DNA of 33,273 nt from Candidatus Bathyarchaeia archaeon (GTDB lineage Archaea > Thermoproteota > Bathyarchaeia > 40CM-2-53-6 > CALIRQ01): positions 1 to 33,273 of the forward strand of contig JAWBRV010000014.1 of assembly GCA_038843675.1 (NCBI GenBank), given 5' to 3'. This document shows positions 3,527 through 29,844 of this stretch, in pieces (the stretch's first letter is position 1; every line of letters begins with the position of its first letter). The notes under the pieces were generated by a model. The model saw only the letters and a program-made list of their open reading frames with translations, was not told the origin of the DNA and did not search any database. The translations under genes and the position numbers were made by a program.

Positions 3527-4251
3527 CTAAAAGCTATTTGATCTTCCTAAGCCCCTCGATGGCTTGGCCGTCCCGGCGATGCAATGGTCGATGCCCCCGA
3601 CGATGTGGGAAATTTTATGAATCGGAACGCTCACAATCAATTCCCCGGGATCATATCCCTTGATCCTCCTAGCGGTTATATCGCCCAAGGAGACGTTGAT
3701 GCTTCCCGTCATTAGGGGATACGTGATAGCGCTCCAGCATAGGGAGCCGCCGAGGTTCGCCTTGGGCAATGAACCATCATCGAAGCCGGCCAAGGCCACG
3801 ATCCGGCAGGCTTGCTCGGGGTTGCATGGGAACAGAACCAGTCCGGTTTCGATTCGATCCTTTCCAATGGGGAGAAAACCACGAACTTGGCCAGCCCGAA
3901 GGGCGGCGGCGCCTCCCTCCTCATCCCTTGGATCATTCGCCTAGCAACGGTCAAGGAGGAGAATAACCTTTCTTCATATGCTAAGAAAGCCTCCAATCCC
4001 TCGCGCGGGGGCCCCAACCCCAAGTGGTAGATTCCCCCCTTGCATCCGCAATTATCGCTGGCCAAGTTGATCGCCTCCCCATCCCTAGCGGCCAAGATCG
4101 CCCCACAAGCGCGATAGATGCCGCCGCTCGCGCCCGGGGCCGGCGTATTGGAATATGCGATAGCCACCGGGCTGCCCCTAAGACCTAGGACCTCCTTCAA
4201 CCTTTGGGAGCACGATGCCCAATCCAGCTCCGGATCCATGCCCTTTCCCAT
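3527..4251 (-). pseudogene. DUF169-family protein (COG2043), interrupted by one frameshift
   Basis: DUF169 proteins are about 240-residue archaeal and bacterial proteins of unknown biochemical role, often near redox genes. The N-terminal part begins MGKGMDPELDWASCSQRL and runs through GSPVAIAYS, CGAILAARDGEAI, NCGCKGGIYHLGL and KFVVFSPLERI. After roughly 3850-3862 the similarity jumps to the -1 frame, which reads ETGLVLFPCNPEQACRIVAL, then GGSLCWSAITYPLMTGSINVSLG, and ends near 3527. One missing base around 3856, after codons RIE, restores a single full-length protein. No homopolymer sits there, so a real mutation is as likely as a sequencing error. It starts 36 nt after the flavin reductase-like gene and is probably cotranscribed with it. 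Confidence 0.75.
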
Positions 4252-7397: not shown

Positions 7398-7629
7398 GCC
7401 ATTCCAGCCTCCTTTTGCCCTTATCCGTTATGGAATATCGATAAAGCCCTTGGCGCCTCCGCCTAGAAAGGAGGCCCTGCCTATAATACCTCAGGACCGC
7501 CATTTGAATGGCCTTCTCGGAGATCTCAACGCCCTCGCCCCTGAGGCGCTCCAGCAGGCCCAAGCTGGTCTCCTCCCCGCGCTCCGATAGGATCCTGAGG
7601 ATGGCCTCCTTGAGCTTATTGTATTTCAA
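7378..7629 (-). CDS. Small winged-helix DNA-binding protein
   Basis: An 83-residue protein that is essentially one winged-helix domain: KYNKLKEAILRILSERGEE (helix 1), SLGLLERLRGEGVEISEKAI (helices 2-3), MAVLRYYRQGLLSRRRRQ (recognition helix and wing) and YRYSITDKGKRRLEWL. It resembles small PadR-like or ArsR-like archaeal regulators, but the exact family is not certain. TTG at 7629 follows GGGG a few bases upstream. A palindrome between its TATA box and start suggests self-repression. The 3' end overlaps the convergent gene at 6912. Confidence 0.8.
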   Translation of the reverse strand: MKYNKLKEAILRILSERGEETSLGLLERLRGEGVEISEKAIQMAVLRYYRQGLLSRRRRQGLYRYSITDKGKRRLEWLKGAAP

Positions 7630-7638
7630 CCCCGGATA

Positions 7639-7672
7639 CGGGATTCAATCCCGGCGGCTTAAATATAATTTT
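7639..7672 (-). promoter_or_regulatory. TATA box plus palindromic candidate operator of the winged-helix gene
   Basis: On the minus strand AATTATATTTAAG (near 7660-7672) is a TATA box. Between it and the TTG start lies the perfect 7-1-7 palindrome CGGGATTCAATCCCG (7639-7653), around the predicted transcript start. That is where archaeal repressors commonly bind. Confidence 0.5.
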
Positions 7673-7680
7673 TAGGGACT

Positions 7681-7860
7681 TTTTGCGATTATTTAACCAA
7701 TTTCAGGCCGTTCATAGATTAGAGGTTTAGTAACATCTTGATTTTACATCGTTTCTTTAATCCATTATTTTTGGAAACAGTTTCGCAAGATGTCTCATTC
7801 TTTATTTGGCTAGATGTTACTTATGTTGAGTGGGACGTTATGAGAAAATTATAAATATGA
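7681..7860. repeat. AT-rich gap with repeated ACATCT/AGATGT motifs in inverted orientation
   Basis: The gap between the winged-helix gene and the next paralogue is AT-rich. AGTAACATCT (7729-7738) is inverted as AGATGTTACT (7812-7821), and ACATCTTG (7733-7740) recurs as CAAGATGT (7786-7793). No ORF was found in the gap. The TATA box of the downstream gene (ATTATAAATA) is near 7847-7856. Confidence 0.4.
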
Positions 7861-7893
7861 CCTCCGCCCTCCCTGTATTGAAAAGTGTGGGGG

Positions 7894-8403
7894 ATGGGCG
7901 AAGAAGGCTGGGTAGAGGTGACGGTCAGGTACAAGGGCTTGGAGAAGACCGTCAGGGGGGATCCGAACGCGGTGGTGAGCGAGTTGATGGCATTCTTCGC
8001 GAACGCGATGCCGGGCTTGGAGGTCATATCGAGGATATCGCTCTCGGTGGATATGGAGGGGCTCCTGAGGGATTGCGAAGGCGTCATAGCCCTAACGCCG
8101 GAGGGGCTCGTGATAACGGCCCCCGTGGATTTCCTGCCGGACAGGGAGCTGATACTATTCCATTTGGCCCTAGCCAAGATCGCCCACTCCCTCGGGAAGG
8201 CGGAGGGATCCTCCCTGACGTCGAGCGAATTGGCCAACAGGGTCAAGCGGAGCCCCGGGACTATAGCGGGGAGGGTGAGCGAGCTCTGCTCCGAGGGGTT
8301 CGCCGAGAGGGTGGGGAAGGGGGAGTACAGGGCGACGACCTACGGCCTCGATCATTTCAGGAGGGCCATATTGCCAAAGGTGAAGCAGAGGACGGAGGGC
8401 TGA
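7894..8403 (+). CDS. Two-domain protein with C-terminal winged helix (paralogue B)
   Basis: A 169-residue relative of the genes at 6912 and 8409. The N-terminal strand pair WVEVTVRYKGLEKTVRGDP is followed by a helical part, the hinge GVIALTPEGLVITAPVDFLP, then DRELILFHLALAKIAHSLG. The C-terminal winged helix is SSELANRVKRSPGTIAGRVS and ELCSEGFAERVGKGEYRATT. The last part matches DNA-binding helix-turn-helix domains; the N-terminal domain is not assigned. A GTG at 7885 is possible, but ATG 7894 with the preceding G5 run is preferred. The next paralogue starts 5 nt after its stop, so both are likely cotranscribed. Confidence 0.78.
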   Translation: MGEEGWVEVTVRYKGLEKTVRGDPNAVVSELMAFFANAMPGLEVISRISLSVDMEGLLRDCEGVIALTPEGLVITAPVDFLPDRELILFHLALAKIAHSLGKAEGSSLTSSELANRVKRSPGTIAGRVSELCSEGFAERVGKGEYRATTYGLDHFRRAILPKVKQRTEG

Positions 8404-8408
8404 GCAAG

Positions 8409-8906
8409 TTGGAGGGCGATGGCACATTGAAAGTGACGATCGAGTGGAGGGGGATGCGCCACGAGGCGGAGGGCGATGTGGACGAGGTCGTGAGGGAAAT
8501 CCTCAAGTTCCTCCAAAGCGCCTGCCCGACCTATGAATTGGCCTCGAGGCTCCTCTTCGCCCCGGATTATGTACAGCTGATGGATTCGCTCTCCAAGTTC
8601 CTGAACATAACGCAGGATGGGGAGATGGTCCTGCTCAAATCCTATATGCCCGCTGATCAATCCATGGGCCTGGTCCTTCTATGCGCCCATATACTCTCGA
8701 AGATCGGCAGGAGGGAGGATGACGAGATGTCGATAGAGGAGCTTAAGAAGCTGACCGGGAAATCCGAGAAGACCGTCAGGAATACTCTGACCCAGATGAC
8801 CAAGGATGGCACCGTGGAGCGGACGGGTAGGGGCAGCTATAGGATAACGAACTTGGGGATGATGCGAATGAGGGAGATGCTGGAATCGAGCTCGGAGGGG
8901 ATGTGA
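8409..8906 (+). CDS. Two-domain protein with C-terminal winged helix (paralogue C)
   Basis: A 165-residue relative of the gene just upstream. It opens with LKVTIEWRGMRHEAEGDVDE and VVREILKFLQSACPTYELAS, then KFLNITQDGEMVLLK and an amphipathic helix LVLLCAHILSKIG. It ends with a winged helix: MSIEELKKLTGKSEKTVRN, TLTQMTKDGTVERTGRGSYR. TTG at 8409 has GGAGGG about 9 nt upstream inside the end of the previous gene. Strand order and wing motif (G-R/K-G-x-Y-R) match paralogue B closely and A more loosely. The partners and DNA targets are unknown. Confidence 0.78.
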   Translation: MEGDGTLKVTIEWRGMRHEAEGDVDEVVREILKFLQSACPTYELASRLLFAPDYVQLMDSLSKFLNITQDGEMVLLKSYMPADQSMGLVLLCAHILSKIGRREDDEMSIEELKKLTGKSEKTVRNTLTQMTKDGTVERTGRGSYRITNLGMMRMREMLESSSEGM

Positions 8907-26122: not shown

Positions 26123-26223
26123 GGGGGTTATCACCATGAGTGGCCCGGGCTCTCTAGGCCATGGGAGGAAGGATCCGGGCCCGCCGCTCCTCCAGCAGGG
26201 CTCCCCGTTCCATAGAGGCCATT

Positions 26224-26406
26224 GGGGAAATATTGATCCCAAAGGAGAGGAAGAGGGTGCGTGTTTCCCTAGATGAGGATGGTGAGAGGGAATTGCTCAA
26301 CGCTTTGAATGAAATAAAAGTGATAATTGGGTTGGAAAAACCTCCTGAGCCAAAGAGGATTCCGTTTTGCAGGAGGTGCGCTTATAGAGATTTTTGTTGG
26401 GTGTAG
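26224..26406 (+). pseudogene. cas4: cas4 fragment: only the C-terminal iron-sulfur end remains
   Basis: The frame reads GEILIPKERKRVRVSLDEDG, ERELLNALNEIKVIIG and ends PFCRRCAYRDFCWV. This matches the last ~60 residues of Cas4, including three of the cluster cysteines spaced C-x2-C-x5-C. The RecB-like nuclease motifs and the first cysteine, about 120 residues, are missing. Upstream of about 26220 the sequence is GC-rich and unrelated to Cas4, while downstream it is AT-rich, so a recombination junction lies there. A start at ATG 26161 is open in frame but adds only non-homologous residues. The split cas1 follows 3 nt after the stop. Confidence 0.8.
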
Positions 26407-26409
26407 GGC

Positions 26410-26745
26410 TTGAAAAAGAACATATTCATATTCAGCAGTGGTGAGCTGAAGAGAGAGGGCAATACGCTTTGCTTCATTAGTGGAGCGCTAAAGAAGTTCG
26501 TTCCGATATCGGAGGTTTCATCCATATTTATATTCGGCGAAACGACATTCAATAAGAGATTCTTGGAGTTCATCTCATCCAATGAGGTAACTTTACATGT
26601 CTTTAACTATTATGGCTATTACGTGGGGAGCTTTTATCCAAGGACCCACTACAATGCGGGCTACATGACGCTCAAGCAGTGTGAACACTATCTGGAAAAT
26701 TCAAAGAGGGTGGAGCTAGCACGGAAATTCGTTGAAGGGGGTTGA
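26410..26745 (+). CDS. cas1: Cas1 N-terminal part (separate ORF after frameshift)
   Basis: The first 111 residues of Cas1, the CRISPR spacer integrase: KKNIFIFSSGELKREGNTLC, then FVPISEVSSIFIFGETTFNK, VTLHVFNYYGYYVGSFYPR and EHYLENSKRVELARKFVEGG, then TGA. This covers the beta-sandwich domain and the first helix of the catalytic domain. The rest continues in the -1 frame. Adding one G to the G5 run at 26737-26741 would restore one protein of about 330 residues. TTG at 26410 is the only start that fits the conserved N terminus. It is unclear whether the protein is made as two pieces, by frameshifting, or not at all. Confidence 0.85.
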   Translation: MKKNIFIFSSGELKREGNTLCFISGALKKFVPISEVSSIFIFGETTFNKRFLEFISSNEVTLHVFNYYGYYVGSFYPRTHYNAGYMTLKQCEHYLENSKRVELARKFVEGG

Positions 26746-26750
26746 AAAAT

Positions 26751-27398
26751 ATGCTCAAGAATTTAATGTACTACAACAACAGAGGGGTAGAGCTATCTCA
26801 ATCTATGAGATTCTTAGGAGATTGTCTTGAAAAACTGGAGAGGGTTGAGAGGATCGATGAACTTATGGCCATAGAAGGAAATGCTAAAGAGGAGTACTAT
26901 ATCTCCTTTAACGAAATCCTCAAGGATGAAAGTTTCTCTTACAAGAGGAGGGAGAGGAGACCCCCGAAGAGCCGCTTGAACGCATTATTAAGCTTTGGCA
27001 ATAGCCTGATATATGTAACAATTCTTGGAGAGATTTATAAAACTCACCTAGATCCCCGCATCGGGTTTTTACATGCCTCCAATTTCAGGAAGTTCTCATT
27101 GAACCTAGATGTAGCCGAAATTTTTAAGCCAATAATAGTGGATAGGATTATATTTTCCCTTGTGAATAAGAGGATGCTTGATGACTCATGCTTTGCAAAG
27201 GAGTTGGAAGGAATCTATCTCAGCGAGAAGGGTAGGAGGATCTTCGTTCAAAAGTACGATGAAAAGCTTAAGCAGGTTGTTAGCTTTAAAAAAGGCAGGA
27301 GGTGCTCCTATCAAAGGCTCATTAGGCTAGAGCTTTATAAAATAGAGAGGCACCTAATCGGAGAACAGGAATATCAACCCTTTGTTTCTCAATGGTGA
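26751..27398 (+). CDS. cas1: Cas1 C-terminal catalytic part (separate ORF)
   Basis: About 215 residues carrying the whole metal site of Cas1: Glu in ELMAIEGNAKEEYY, His in DPRIGFLHASNFRKFSL and Glu in NLDVAEIFKPIIVDRI. RRPPKSRLNALLSFGNSLIY and RLIRLELYKIERHLIGEQ are also typical of archaeal type I Cas1. ATG at 26751 has the G5 run about 9 nt upstream as a possible Shine-Dalgarno site. A TTG at 26742 overlaps the previous stop and is an alternative start. The catalytic half could thus be translated separately, but it would lack the beta domain used for dimer and Cas2 contact. Confidence 0.85.
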   Translation: MLKNLMYYNNRGVELSQSMRFLGDCLEKLERVERIDELMAIEGNAKEEYYISFNEILKDESFSYKRRERRPPKSRLNALLSFGNSLIYVTILGEIYKTHLDPRIGFLHASNFRKFSLNLDVAEIFKPIIVDRIIFSLVNKRMLDDSCFAKELEGIYLSEKGRRIFVQKYDEKLKQVVSFKKGRRCSYQRLIRLELYKIERHLIGEQEYQPFVSQW

Positions 27399-27442: not shown

Positions 27443-27706
27443 ATCTACGTAATATTGGTGTATGATATAGGGGAGGAGCGTGTGAACAAAGTGCTTAAAA
27501 TATGTAGAAAATACCTGACGTGGGTTCAAAATTCAGTCTTTGAAGGTGACTTGACGGAGGCCAATTTCATGAGGTTGAAACATGAATTAGCGAAGGTGAT
27601 TGAGAAAGAAAGGGACTCAGTAACCTTTTATATTCTTAGGACGACTGCTTACATGAAGAGGGAAGTTCTTGGGACTGTAAAAGGGGAGCCCCTTAGTGTG
27701 CTATGA
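27443..27706 (+). CDS. cas2: Cas2 with no canonical start codon at its conserved N terminus
   Basis: Cas2 bridges two Cas1 dimers during spacer integration. The frame reads (ATC)-YVILVYDIGEERVNKVLKIC, RKYLTWVQNSVFEGDLTEAN and DSVTFYILRTTAYMKREVLG, a normal 87-residue Cas2. The Met expected before Tyr-Val-Ile is encoded ATC (27443-27445). Upstream in frame comes TAG at 27428, with no ATG, GTG or TTG between. A G6 run ends 7 nt before the ATC, ideal Shine-Dalgarno spacing. The first canonical start, TTG 27455, would remove most of strand beta-1. Either ATC is used, or the start has been lost by mutation. Confidence 0.88.
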   Translation: MYVILVYDIGEERVNKVLKICRKYLTWVQNSVFEGDLTEANFMRLKHELAKVIEKERDSVTFYILRTTAYMKREVLGTVKGEPLSVL

Positions 27707-27823
27707 CTGTCGATCTCCAATGTAAGAATGCTTGATTCCACATCGACGGAAAGGCTCCTATGAAAAAGCTTAGGAAAAGGCTTATTAGGAGAAAAGGAGC
27801 GAATTTTCGCCATATGCGCACGG
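27707..27823 (+). promoter_or_regulatory. CRISPR leader
   Basis: The 117 nt between cas2 and the first repeat are AT-rich and purine-rich with no ORF of note. GGCTTATTAGG (about 27777-27787) is TATA-like and predicts a transcript start about 15-20 nt before the first repeat. CTCCTA and TAGGAG flank this element in inverted orientation. The position, just upstream of the repeat 5' end, fits an archaeal leader. Confidence 0.55.
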
Positions 27824-27918
27824 GATCGTAGAATACCTATAAGGGCTTGAAACATCAGAAGGCGATATCCGCTTCCCTGTTTGAGCTTGATCGTAGAATA
27901 CCTATAAGGGCTTGAAAC
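27824..27918 (+). CRISPR. Two-repeat CRISPR mini-array with one 35-nt spacer
   Basis: Two identical 30-nt repeats lie at 27824-27853 and 27889-27918. They start GATCGTAGAATACC and end AAGGGCTTGAAAC, the TTGAAAC end being typical of archaeal type I/III repeats. The single spacer (27854-27888) is 35 nt, a normal length. Orientation matches the cas genes and leader. After the second repeat there is no further direct copy; instead an inverted copy of the repeat core follows. No interference genes lie in the window, so the array may serve complexes encoded elsewhere or be a relic. Confidence 0.9.
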
Positions 27919-27944
27919 CCACAAGCCCTTATAGGTATTGTGGG
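27897..27944. repeat. 18-bp perfect hairpin between the last CRISPR repeat and an inverted copy of its core
   Basis: AATACCTATAAGGGCTTG (27897-27914, inside repeat 2) is followed after 7 nt (AAACCCA) by its exact reverse complement at 27922-27939. A second nested pair, CCCACAA (27918-27924) and TTGTGGG (27938-27944), surrounds the inverted copy. The copy also lies where the glutamine synthetase fragment ends on the minus strand. Such a long perfect stem is unusual at an array end. Confidence 0.85.
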
Positions 27945-28320
27945 ATCTATTGAAGAAAGGAGGAAGTACTCCACTTCTGGAGTGAAATATCCCGTATAAC
28001 CCATTCCTTCCGCGGCTTTCATAGCATTTCTTGCAACATATCCTCTGGGACATACTTCGGAGGGCCCGCCGCCATAAGCCTCATGAACATCCCCTATGAC
28101 TATTGCACTTTTTGCTCTTCTCCGTTGGTCCATGGAATTATAGCCAAAGTTTTGGGTCGGGCATTAGCTTCATGTCCGACTCTTCAATGGACTTGAAGCC
28201 CCTTATGGAAGAACCCATCAAAACCTAAGCCTGCCGCGAAGGCGTTGCCCTCTATGTATTCTTTTGTGGGGACAACCACATCCTTGGCCCTCGACGGCGG
28301 CTCCCCCTTGGATCGGGCGT
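27945..28320 (-). pseudogene. glnA: Glutamine synthetase fragment, frameshifted and truncated
   Basis: Read on the minus strand with corrections, this encodes the N-terminal part of glutamine synthetase: VVVPTKEYIEGNAFAAGLGF then DGSSIRGFKSIEESDMKLMP, TLAIIPWTNGEEQKSAIVIG, DVHEAYGGGPSEVCPRGYVA and GYTGYFTPEVEYFLLSSID. Three indels break it: one extra T near 28212, one missing A in the run near 28150-28153, and one missing A near 28109-28113. Two of the three are in A runs. Only about 120 residues of an expected 440 or more remain, ending at the CRISPR hairpin. It cannot make an active enzyme. Whether the indels are natural or sequencing artefacts is open; the truncation is real in this assembly. 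Confidence 0.8.
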
Positions 28321-29556: not shown

Positions 29557-29844
29557 TCAGGATAGGCCGAGCTTCCTCCTCGCGTATTCAAGGCTCATCC
29601 ACTTCCAGCCTTCCTCGGGCCCCTCGGCGAAGGCCTCCGCCTTGAGCGAAAGGGCCATGTCGGCCCATTCCCGAACCCTCTCCTCGAGTCCCTTTGGGGC
29701 GGGCTCGAGGATCACCCGCGATCCATCGAGCCTGATGGTCATATGCCCCCCTTCCCTTAGGCCCAAGGCCTCCCGGATGCGGAAGGGCAGCACGAGCCTT
29801 CCCTGCTTGTCAATTGAAATGGATTCTTCCACGATGCTCACCAT
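29557..29844 (-). CDS. AbrB/SpoVT-type antitoxin of the third AbrB/PIN pair
   Basis: A 95-residue protein with the swapped-hairpin domain ESISIDKQGRLVLPFRIREA followed by LGLREGGHMTIRLDGSRVIL. A C-terminal toxin-binding tail (GLEERVREWADMALSLKAEA, WKWMSLEYARRKLGLS) follows. ATG at 29844 is at the predicted transcript start, so the mRNA is leaderless. The start codon lies inside a palindrome that also touches the TATA box. Confidence 0.88.
   Translation of the reverse strand: MVSIVEESISIDKQGRLVLPFRIREALGLREGGHMTIRLDGSRVILEPAPKGLEERVREWADMALSLKAEAFAEGPEEGWKWMSLEYARRKLGLS

Follow-up and report, generated by a model that had tools for sequence, protein, structure and literature searches.

Why is the cas1 gene of this archaeal CRISPR locus cut in two at a run of five G residues, with a stop codon and possible restart codons beside the cut? 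The window, the 33,273-nucleotide stretch of DNA analyzed here, is an entire contig of a 1.36-Mb Candidatus Bathyarchaeia genome that is 97.7% complete (about 2% is missing by the completeness estimate). The first cas1 ORF (26410-26745, + strand; 111 aa from a TTG start) encodes the N-terminal domain and the first part of the inter-domain helix. The second (26742-27398, + strand) lies in the -1 frame relative to the first and encodes the C-terminal helical catalytic domain. It spans 218 aa from a TTG (26742-26744) that overlaps the TGA stop of the first ORF (26743-26745), and an ATG at 26751-26753 is also available as a start. A scripted coordinate check and reading of the sequence place the G run at 26737-26741 on the + strand, directly 5′ of the stop. 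Nine nucleotides separate it from the ATG, for which it forms part of a Shine-Dalgarno (SD)-like sequence.

Profile searches identify what was broken. TIGR03641 (cas1_HMARI, type I-B) is the best match of both ORFs, with the first aligned to positions 1-108 of the 324-position model (E = 2e-38) and the second to positions 111-324 (E = 1.9e-83). Both parts belong to the Cas1 of the I-B family, with scores of 132.5 and 280.5 bits that are each below the full-length cut-off of 304.1. Because the two parts cover the model almost without a gap, they represent a single Cas1 broken in two. The second part has relatives of known structure in PDB entries 4xtk, 4wj0, and 2yzs. The coordinates, ORFs, and TIGR03641 matches bear out an earlier note on this DNA, which had described a cas1 split at the G run with stop and restart codons.

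In our interpretation, the locus is the 3′ remnant of a type I-B CRISPR-Cas operon in decay, with the split among its lesions, and we assign this reading a probability of about 0.72. Natural decay was among the options listed in the earlier note, and it is the best supported of them, by several lesions in the locus and by relatives in which this locus has decayed independently. Relatives here are the best 80 of 416 confirmed loci from one scan. Cas1 is open in one frame across the site in 77 of the 80 and is split at the site in none, so the check that the earlier note had named, the same split in related genomes, came back negative. The three exceptions are a locus cut by a contig end (L021), a gene fusion described below (L009), and a Cas1 without an N-terminus (L026). 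The last is from a Freyarchaeota MAG (L026 1-416), lacks the first ~60 residues, and has no Cas1 match in another frame upstream.

The reference for the undamaged state is locus L008 (genome G134; CALJDG010000003.1), which is arranged cas6-cas8b-cas7-cas5-cas3-cas4-cas1-cas2 and is accompanied by 16 repeats. The window resembles this intact type I-B locus in the order cas4-cas1-cas2-array, in the Cas1b family, and in the repeat core GAATACCTATAAGGG-TTGAAAC. Unlike L008, it lacks cas6, cas8b, cas7, cas5, cas3, and most of cas4, its cas1 is split, its cas2 start position reads ATC, and it has one spacer in place of a 16-repeat array.

The gene upstream of cas1 is truncated. The cas4 remnant (26212-26406, + strand) retains just the C-terminal third, which follows about 17 unrelated codons in the same frame, and the nuclease core is absent. 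It aligns to positions 95-160 of the 160 in PF01930 (E = 9.4e-19) and, below the cut-off, to positions 119-179 of the 180 in TIGR00372. The L008 Cas4 matches the window at 26215-26400 only. A search of the upstream DNA in other frames for the missing part of cas4 returned scattered weak matches and no consistent remnant. Among the 69 relatives in which cas4 was measured, 66 encode proteins of 163-202 aa and the other three encode proteins of 110, 143, and 143 aa. Ten of the other 11 relatives have no cas4 match and one has cas4 on the other strand. Because cas4 was not found near these 10 of the 80 relatives, damage to cas4 would not by itself establish decay.

The gene downstream of cas1 has an altered start. 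The cas2 ORF (27443-27706, + strand) matches PF09827 (E = 5.1e-23), and its expected start codon position (27443-27445) reads ATC. This position is ATG, GTG, or TTG in 70 of 74 relatives (61, 5, and 4, respectively); the rest comprise one ATT (L041), one AAT, and two unaligned sequences. The first in-frame TTG is at 27455, and a start there loses four residues of the first strand. The SD score is 17.0 before the ATC versus 5 before this TTG. Translation of cas2 might start at the ATC, and the relative L041 has ATT at this position. With cas1 split, cas4 reduced to its C-terminal third, and ATC at the start position of cas2, the window does not contain a complete Cas1, Cas2, and Cas4 adaptation module. 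The damage to cas4 and cas2 and the two-repeat array are absent from the earlier note.

A CRISPR mini-array adjoins cas2 (27824-27918, + strand). It consists of two identical 30-nt repeats (27824-27853 and 27889-27918) and one 35-nt spacer, and a genome-wide search with a 26-nt core of the repeat, allowing up to three mismatches, found no other copy. The interval between cas2 and the array (27707-27823, + strand) is a probable leader that aligns weakly with the corresponding interval in L008 and L009.

The interference machinery is missing. The window has no match to five L008 proteins (the products of cas6, cas8b, cas7, cas5, and cas3). Cas7 (TIGR01875, Csh2), Cas6, and Cas10 were not found in the 97.7% complete genome, and the Csh2 and Cas6 models did match in the intact relative G134. 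A Cas3-core model gave three matches in the genome, all below the cut-off, and similar ones occur in both same-genus genomes. The genome-wide effector search covered Cas7 (two models), Cas6, Cas10, and Cas3, and the search with Cas5 and Cas8b was confined to the window. The two cas1 parts are the sole PF01867 matches in the genome, and no further Cas1 was found. The locus thus combines lesions in cas4, cas1, and cas2, each of which would be expected to inactivate, and relatives that retain an intact Cas1.

The following course of decay would account for this arrangement. A deletion or rearrangement would have taken everything upstream of mid-cas4, including the genes for interference and the nuclease core of Cas4. 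The cas2 start codon would have been lost, cas1 would have been split by a frame shift of one base at the G run, and the array would have been reduced to one spacer. The products would be an N-terminal fragment and possibly a restarted C-terminal fragment, neither of which is expected to be a working integrase. The remnant would sit as a low-GC island in the Bathyarchaeia genome. The GC content of the cas stretch is 0.416 versus 0.571 for the window, and the GC3 of the cas genes is 0.48-0.56 versus 0.77-0.80 in seven other genes. We infer the order in which these events took place, that the island was acquired, and that the frame shift exists in living cells and not just in the assembly. The same-genus genome G001 shares DNA with the window to ~25878. 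Beyond this point the two diverge, with a single 127-nt match near 28.6 kb as the exception, and the sister genome therefore offers no clean empty site.

The age of the damage was gauged from conserved alignment columns, counted across those relatives whose coverage was 80% or more (77 for the first cas1 ORF, 80 for the second, 71 for Cas2, and 69 for cas4; L087 was excluded from the Cas2 count on account of a stop). Changes affect 2 of 66 conserved columns in the second cas1 ORF, and 16 of the 80 relatives have as many. None of the 25 columns in Cas2 and none of the 8 in the cas4 remnant are changed, and these three counts are unremarkable among the relatives. The first cas1 ORF has 4 of 31 columns changed, a count above that of any of its 77 relatives (L008 has 3). 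With most conserved residues retained, the decay looks recent; the less likely reading of these counts is that the proteins are still in use. The little decay at the protein level is a point against the remnant interpretation, the first cas1 ORF excepted.

Decay of the same locus is seen elsewhere in the class. The second cas1 ORF has a match in 65 of the 256 genomes of the class. At least 50% identity over its whole length is reached only in G000, G167, G134, and G025, and G026 contributes short pieces. Among these five, only G134 has an intact locus. Locus L009 of genome G167 (Candidatus Bathyarchaeota QZM_A2_bin_23) resembles the window in retaining cas1-cas2 and two repeats. It has no cas4 match, and no type I-B gene was among the ORFs tested upstream. 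The damage differs from that in the window: an in-frame fusion (7620-8651) joins Cas6 residues 23-109 to Cas1 residues 59-330, without Cas1 residues 1-58 (L008 numbering), and the Cas6 model match in the fusion is 29 bits, below the cut-off. The fusion is followed by a cas2 that, unlike that of the window, starts with ATG, and by the two-repeat array.

Two further genomes carry other forms of damage. In G025 (L127 8113-9900), cas4 and cas1 each lie in two frames and cas2 is cut short, and no array of this repeat kind was found near the locus. The first G025 cas4 piece was detected by a tblastn match alone (E = 4e-6), the family scan having given none. In G026 (L126 8393-8643), Cas1 survives only as C-terminal pieces, which occupy two frames; the opposite strand carries a piece of Cas5 of 26 residues (E = 2.8e-6). 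A lone repeat copy is found in the same-genus genome G002 (L147 1764-1791, C4) beside an array with an unrelated repeat. Because the damage differs from case to case, this type I-B locus was probably lost repeatedly within the class. An additional, more distantly related Cas1 is encoded in each of G167, G025, and G026; Cas10 is over the cut-off in G167 and weaker in G025, and Cas6 is over the cut-off in G026 and G001. Another system could therefore back up the lost locus in those genomes. None of these possible back-up systems was found in the window's genome among the families searched.

A decayed CRISPR locus is ordinary by itself. The value of this one is comparative, in that the type I-B lineage occurs within a single archaeal class in several states of loss that are independent of one another: a full operon with 16 repeats, a Cas6-Cas1 fusion with two repeats, a split cas1 with one spacer, genes with frame shifts but no such array, small fragments, and a lone repeat. 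For annotation, such a locus should not be counted as an active adaptation module. Parts of one study report arrays and cas3 genes with no complete system detected in a Bathyarchaeia MAG (DRVA), and mini-arrays, Cas2-like genes, and Cas4 genes in viruses (PMC10848311). The locus in the window is not described in those parts. Nor was it found among the literature matches listed for split, frameshifted, or pseudogene cas1, Bathyarchaeia CRISPR, CRISPR loss, and Cas1 domains; the split-cas1 matches listed concern engineered Cas12/Cas13 or other matters.

In the alternative that survives best, the G run was misread in sequencing or assembly, or represents a minority variant among the strains, and cas1 is intact in a locus that is otherwise reduced. 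The position of the split at a homopolymer in a MAG and the good conservation of the Cas1 residues speak for it, as does a second frame-shifted gene on the contig. This gene, encoding a DUF169 protein (PF02596; 3527-4251, - strand), is split between two frames near 3840, where there is no long homopolymer. A pair of frame shifts within 33 kb is consistent both with the decay of dispensable genes and with the error reading. The quality of G/C runs was assessed in 12 genes common to the window and G001, a stretch that does not reach the DUF169 gene. These controls were hand-picked as real genes with a G001 homologue covering them in one frame, and five two-frame ORFs (four from G001 and one from the window) were left out as antisense or run-on ORFs on visual inspection. 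The 12,726 coding bases contain 60 G/C runs of at least five and no frame breaks, which indicates that such runs are generally well assembled and that errors of this kind are uncommon here, although zero in 60 is still compatible with an error rate of up to ~5% per run. The damage to cas4 and cas2 does not consist of homopolymer indels. We consider an artefact unlikely, and a G-run error, even if real, would not restore the locus.

A two-piece Cas1 would require coupled restart at the ATG at 26751 and assembly of the two fragments into a working integrase. The overlap of stop and start within cas1 fits such a protein, and so does the strength of the restart signal. An SD-like duplex score of 18.5 before this ATG is reached by only 4 of the 303 internal ATGs in 14 window genes, this one included, and by 6 of 1173 ATGs on both strands. 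The SD-like match that had been proposed for this ATG is thus better than chance. Among the best 80 of 416 loci, 32 have an ATG at the homologous codon and none has an SD score as high at the homologous place. Thus, the strength of the SD is particular to the window sequence, and the idea that the restart signal is a mere by-product of the conserved peptide is supported only in part, by the shared ATG. Judged from the sequence, restart at the ATG in the cell is plausible; usefulness does not follow from it.

The distribution of catalytic residues is also compatible with a functional second piece. An E, an H, and a D/E are the residues that we take to be catalytic in Cas1, and the corresponding invariant columns E157, H223, and D235/E238 (L008 numbering; alignment of 21 relatives) all fall within the part encoded by the second ORF, as the earlier note had claimed. 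The conserved columns of this part are mostly kept. Set against these points is the location of the cut. In the predicted structure of the L008 Cas1, a relative and not the window's own protein (pTM 0.89, mean pLDDT 88.9; the input alignment comprised 21 of the 80 loci), residue 112 marks the position of the break, mid-way in a 30-residue helix (98-127). A cut inside this helix and the absence of a split at this site in every one of the 80 relatives are at odds with a conserved division between domains, and the proposal that the signals are arranged for coupling does not hold as a conserved design. The damage to cas4 and cas2, the single spacer, and the effector families that were searched for and not found in the genome also argue against a working integrase. 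A functional two-piece Cas1 is therefore very improbable.

A related idea is that the cas1-cas2-mini-array unit has been retained and domesticated for DNA integration, its Cas1 being in two pieces or remodelled at the N-terminus, with restart at the ATG at 26751. The window and G167 arrive by different damage at a similar endpoint, a locus without I-B interference genes but with Cas2 and two repeats enclosing one spacer, and the N-terminal domain of Cas1 is altered or detached in both. G167 is not free of CRISPR effectors because another Cas1 and Cas10 are present there. We regard domestication as highly doubtful. Programmed -1 frameshifting on the G run to yield full-length Cas1, suggested by the G run that precedes the stop and by the uninterrupted frame beyond, is rejected as the least credible reading because canonical slippery heptamers follow the rule X XXY YYZ and none occurs at the G run, no stimulatory RNA structure was found downstream in a pseudoknot-free fold test of 26745-26825 (-13.1 kcal/mol, z = -0.47, with folds as good in 62 of 200 shuffled sequences), and neither a stop at the site nor a G run followed by a stop occurs in any of the best 80 of 416 loci, though runs of five or six G lie nearby in five of the 80.

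The remnant was also considered as a possible viral acquisition, and this origin was rejected. In the PHROGs collection, the cas1 parts match two families labelled "unknown function" and cas2 matches none. The six neighbouring ORFs yield only an antitoxin-type match and an unknown-function match, both to 29560-29844. Neither the repeat core nor the first 24 nt of the spacer has an exact match in viral contigs.

The 3′ end of the mini-array has one additional feature. An inverted copy of the repeat (27922-27947, - strand; 26 nt, 88%) starts 3 nt after the second repeat. Together they form a hairpin of 18 unbroken pairs with 7 nt between the arms and a fold z-score of -7.8, and the inverted copy is possibly a third repeat that has been turned round, or a terminator.
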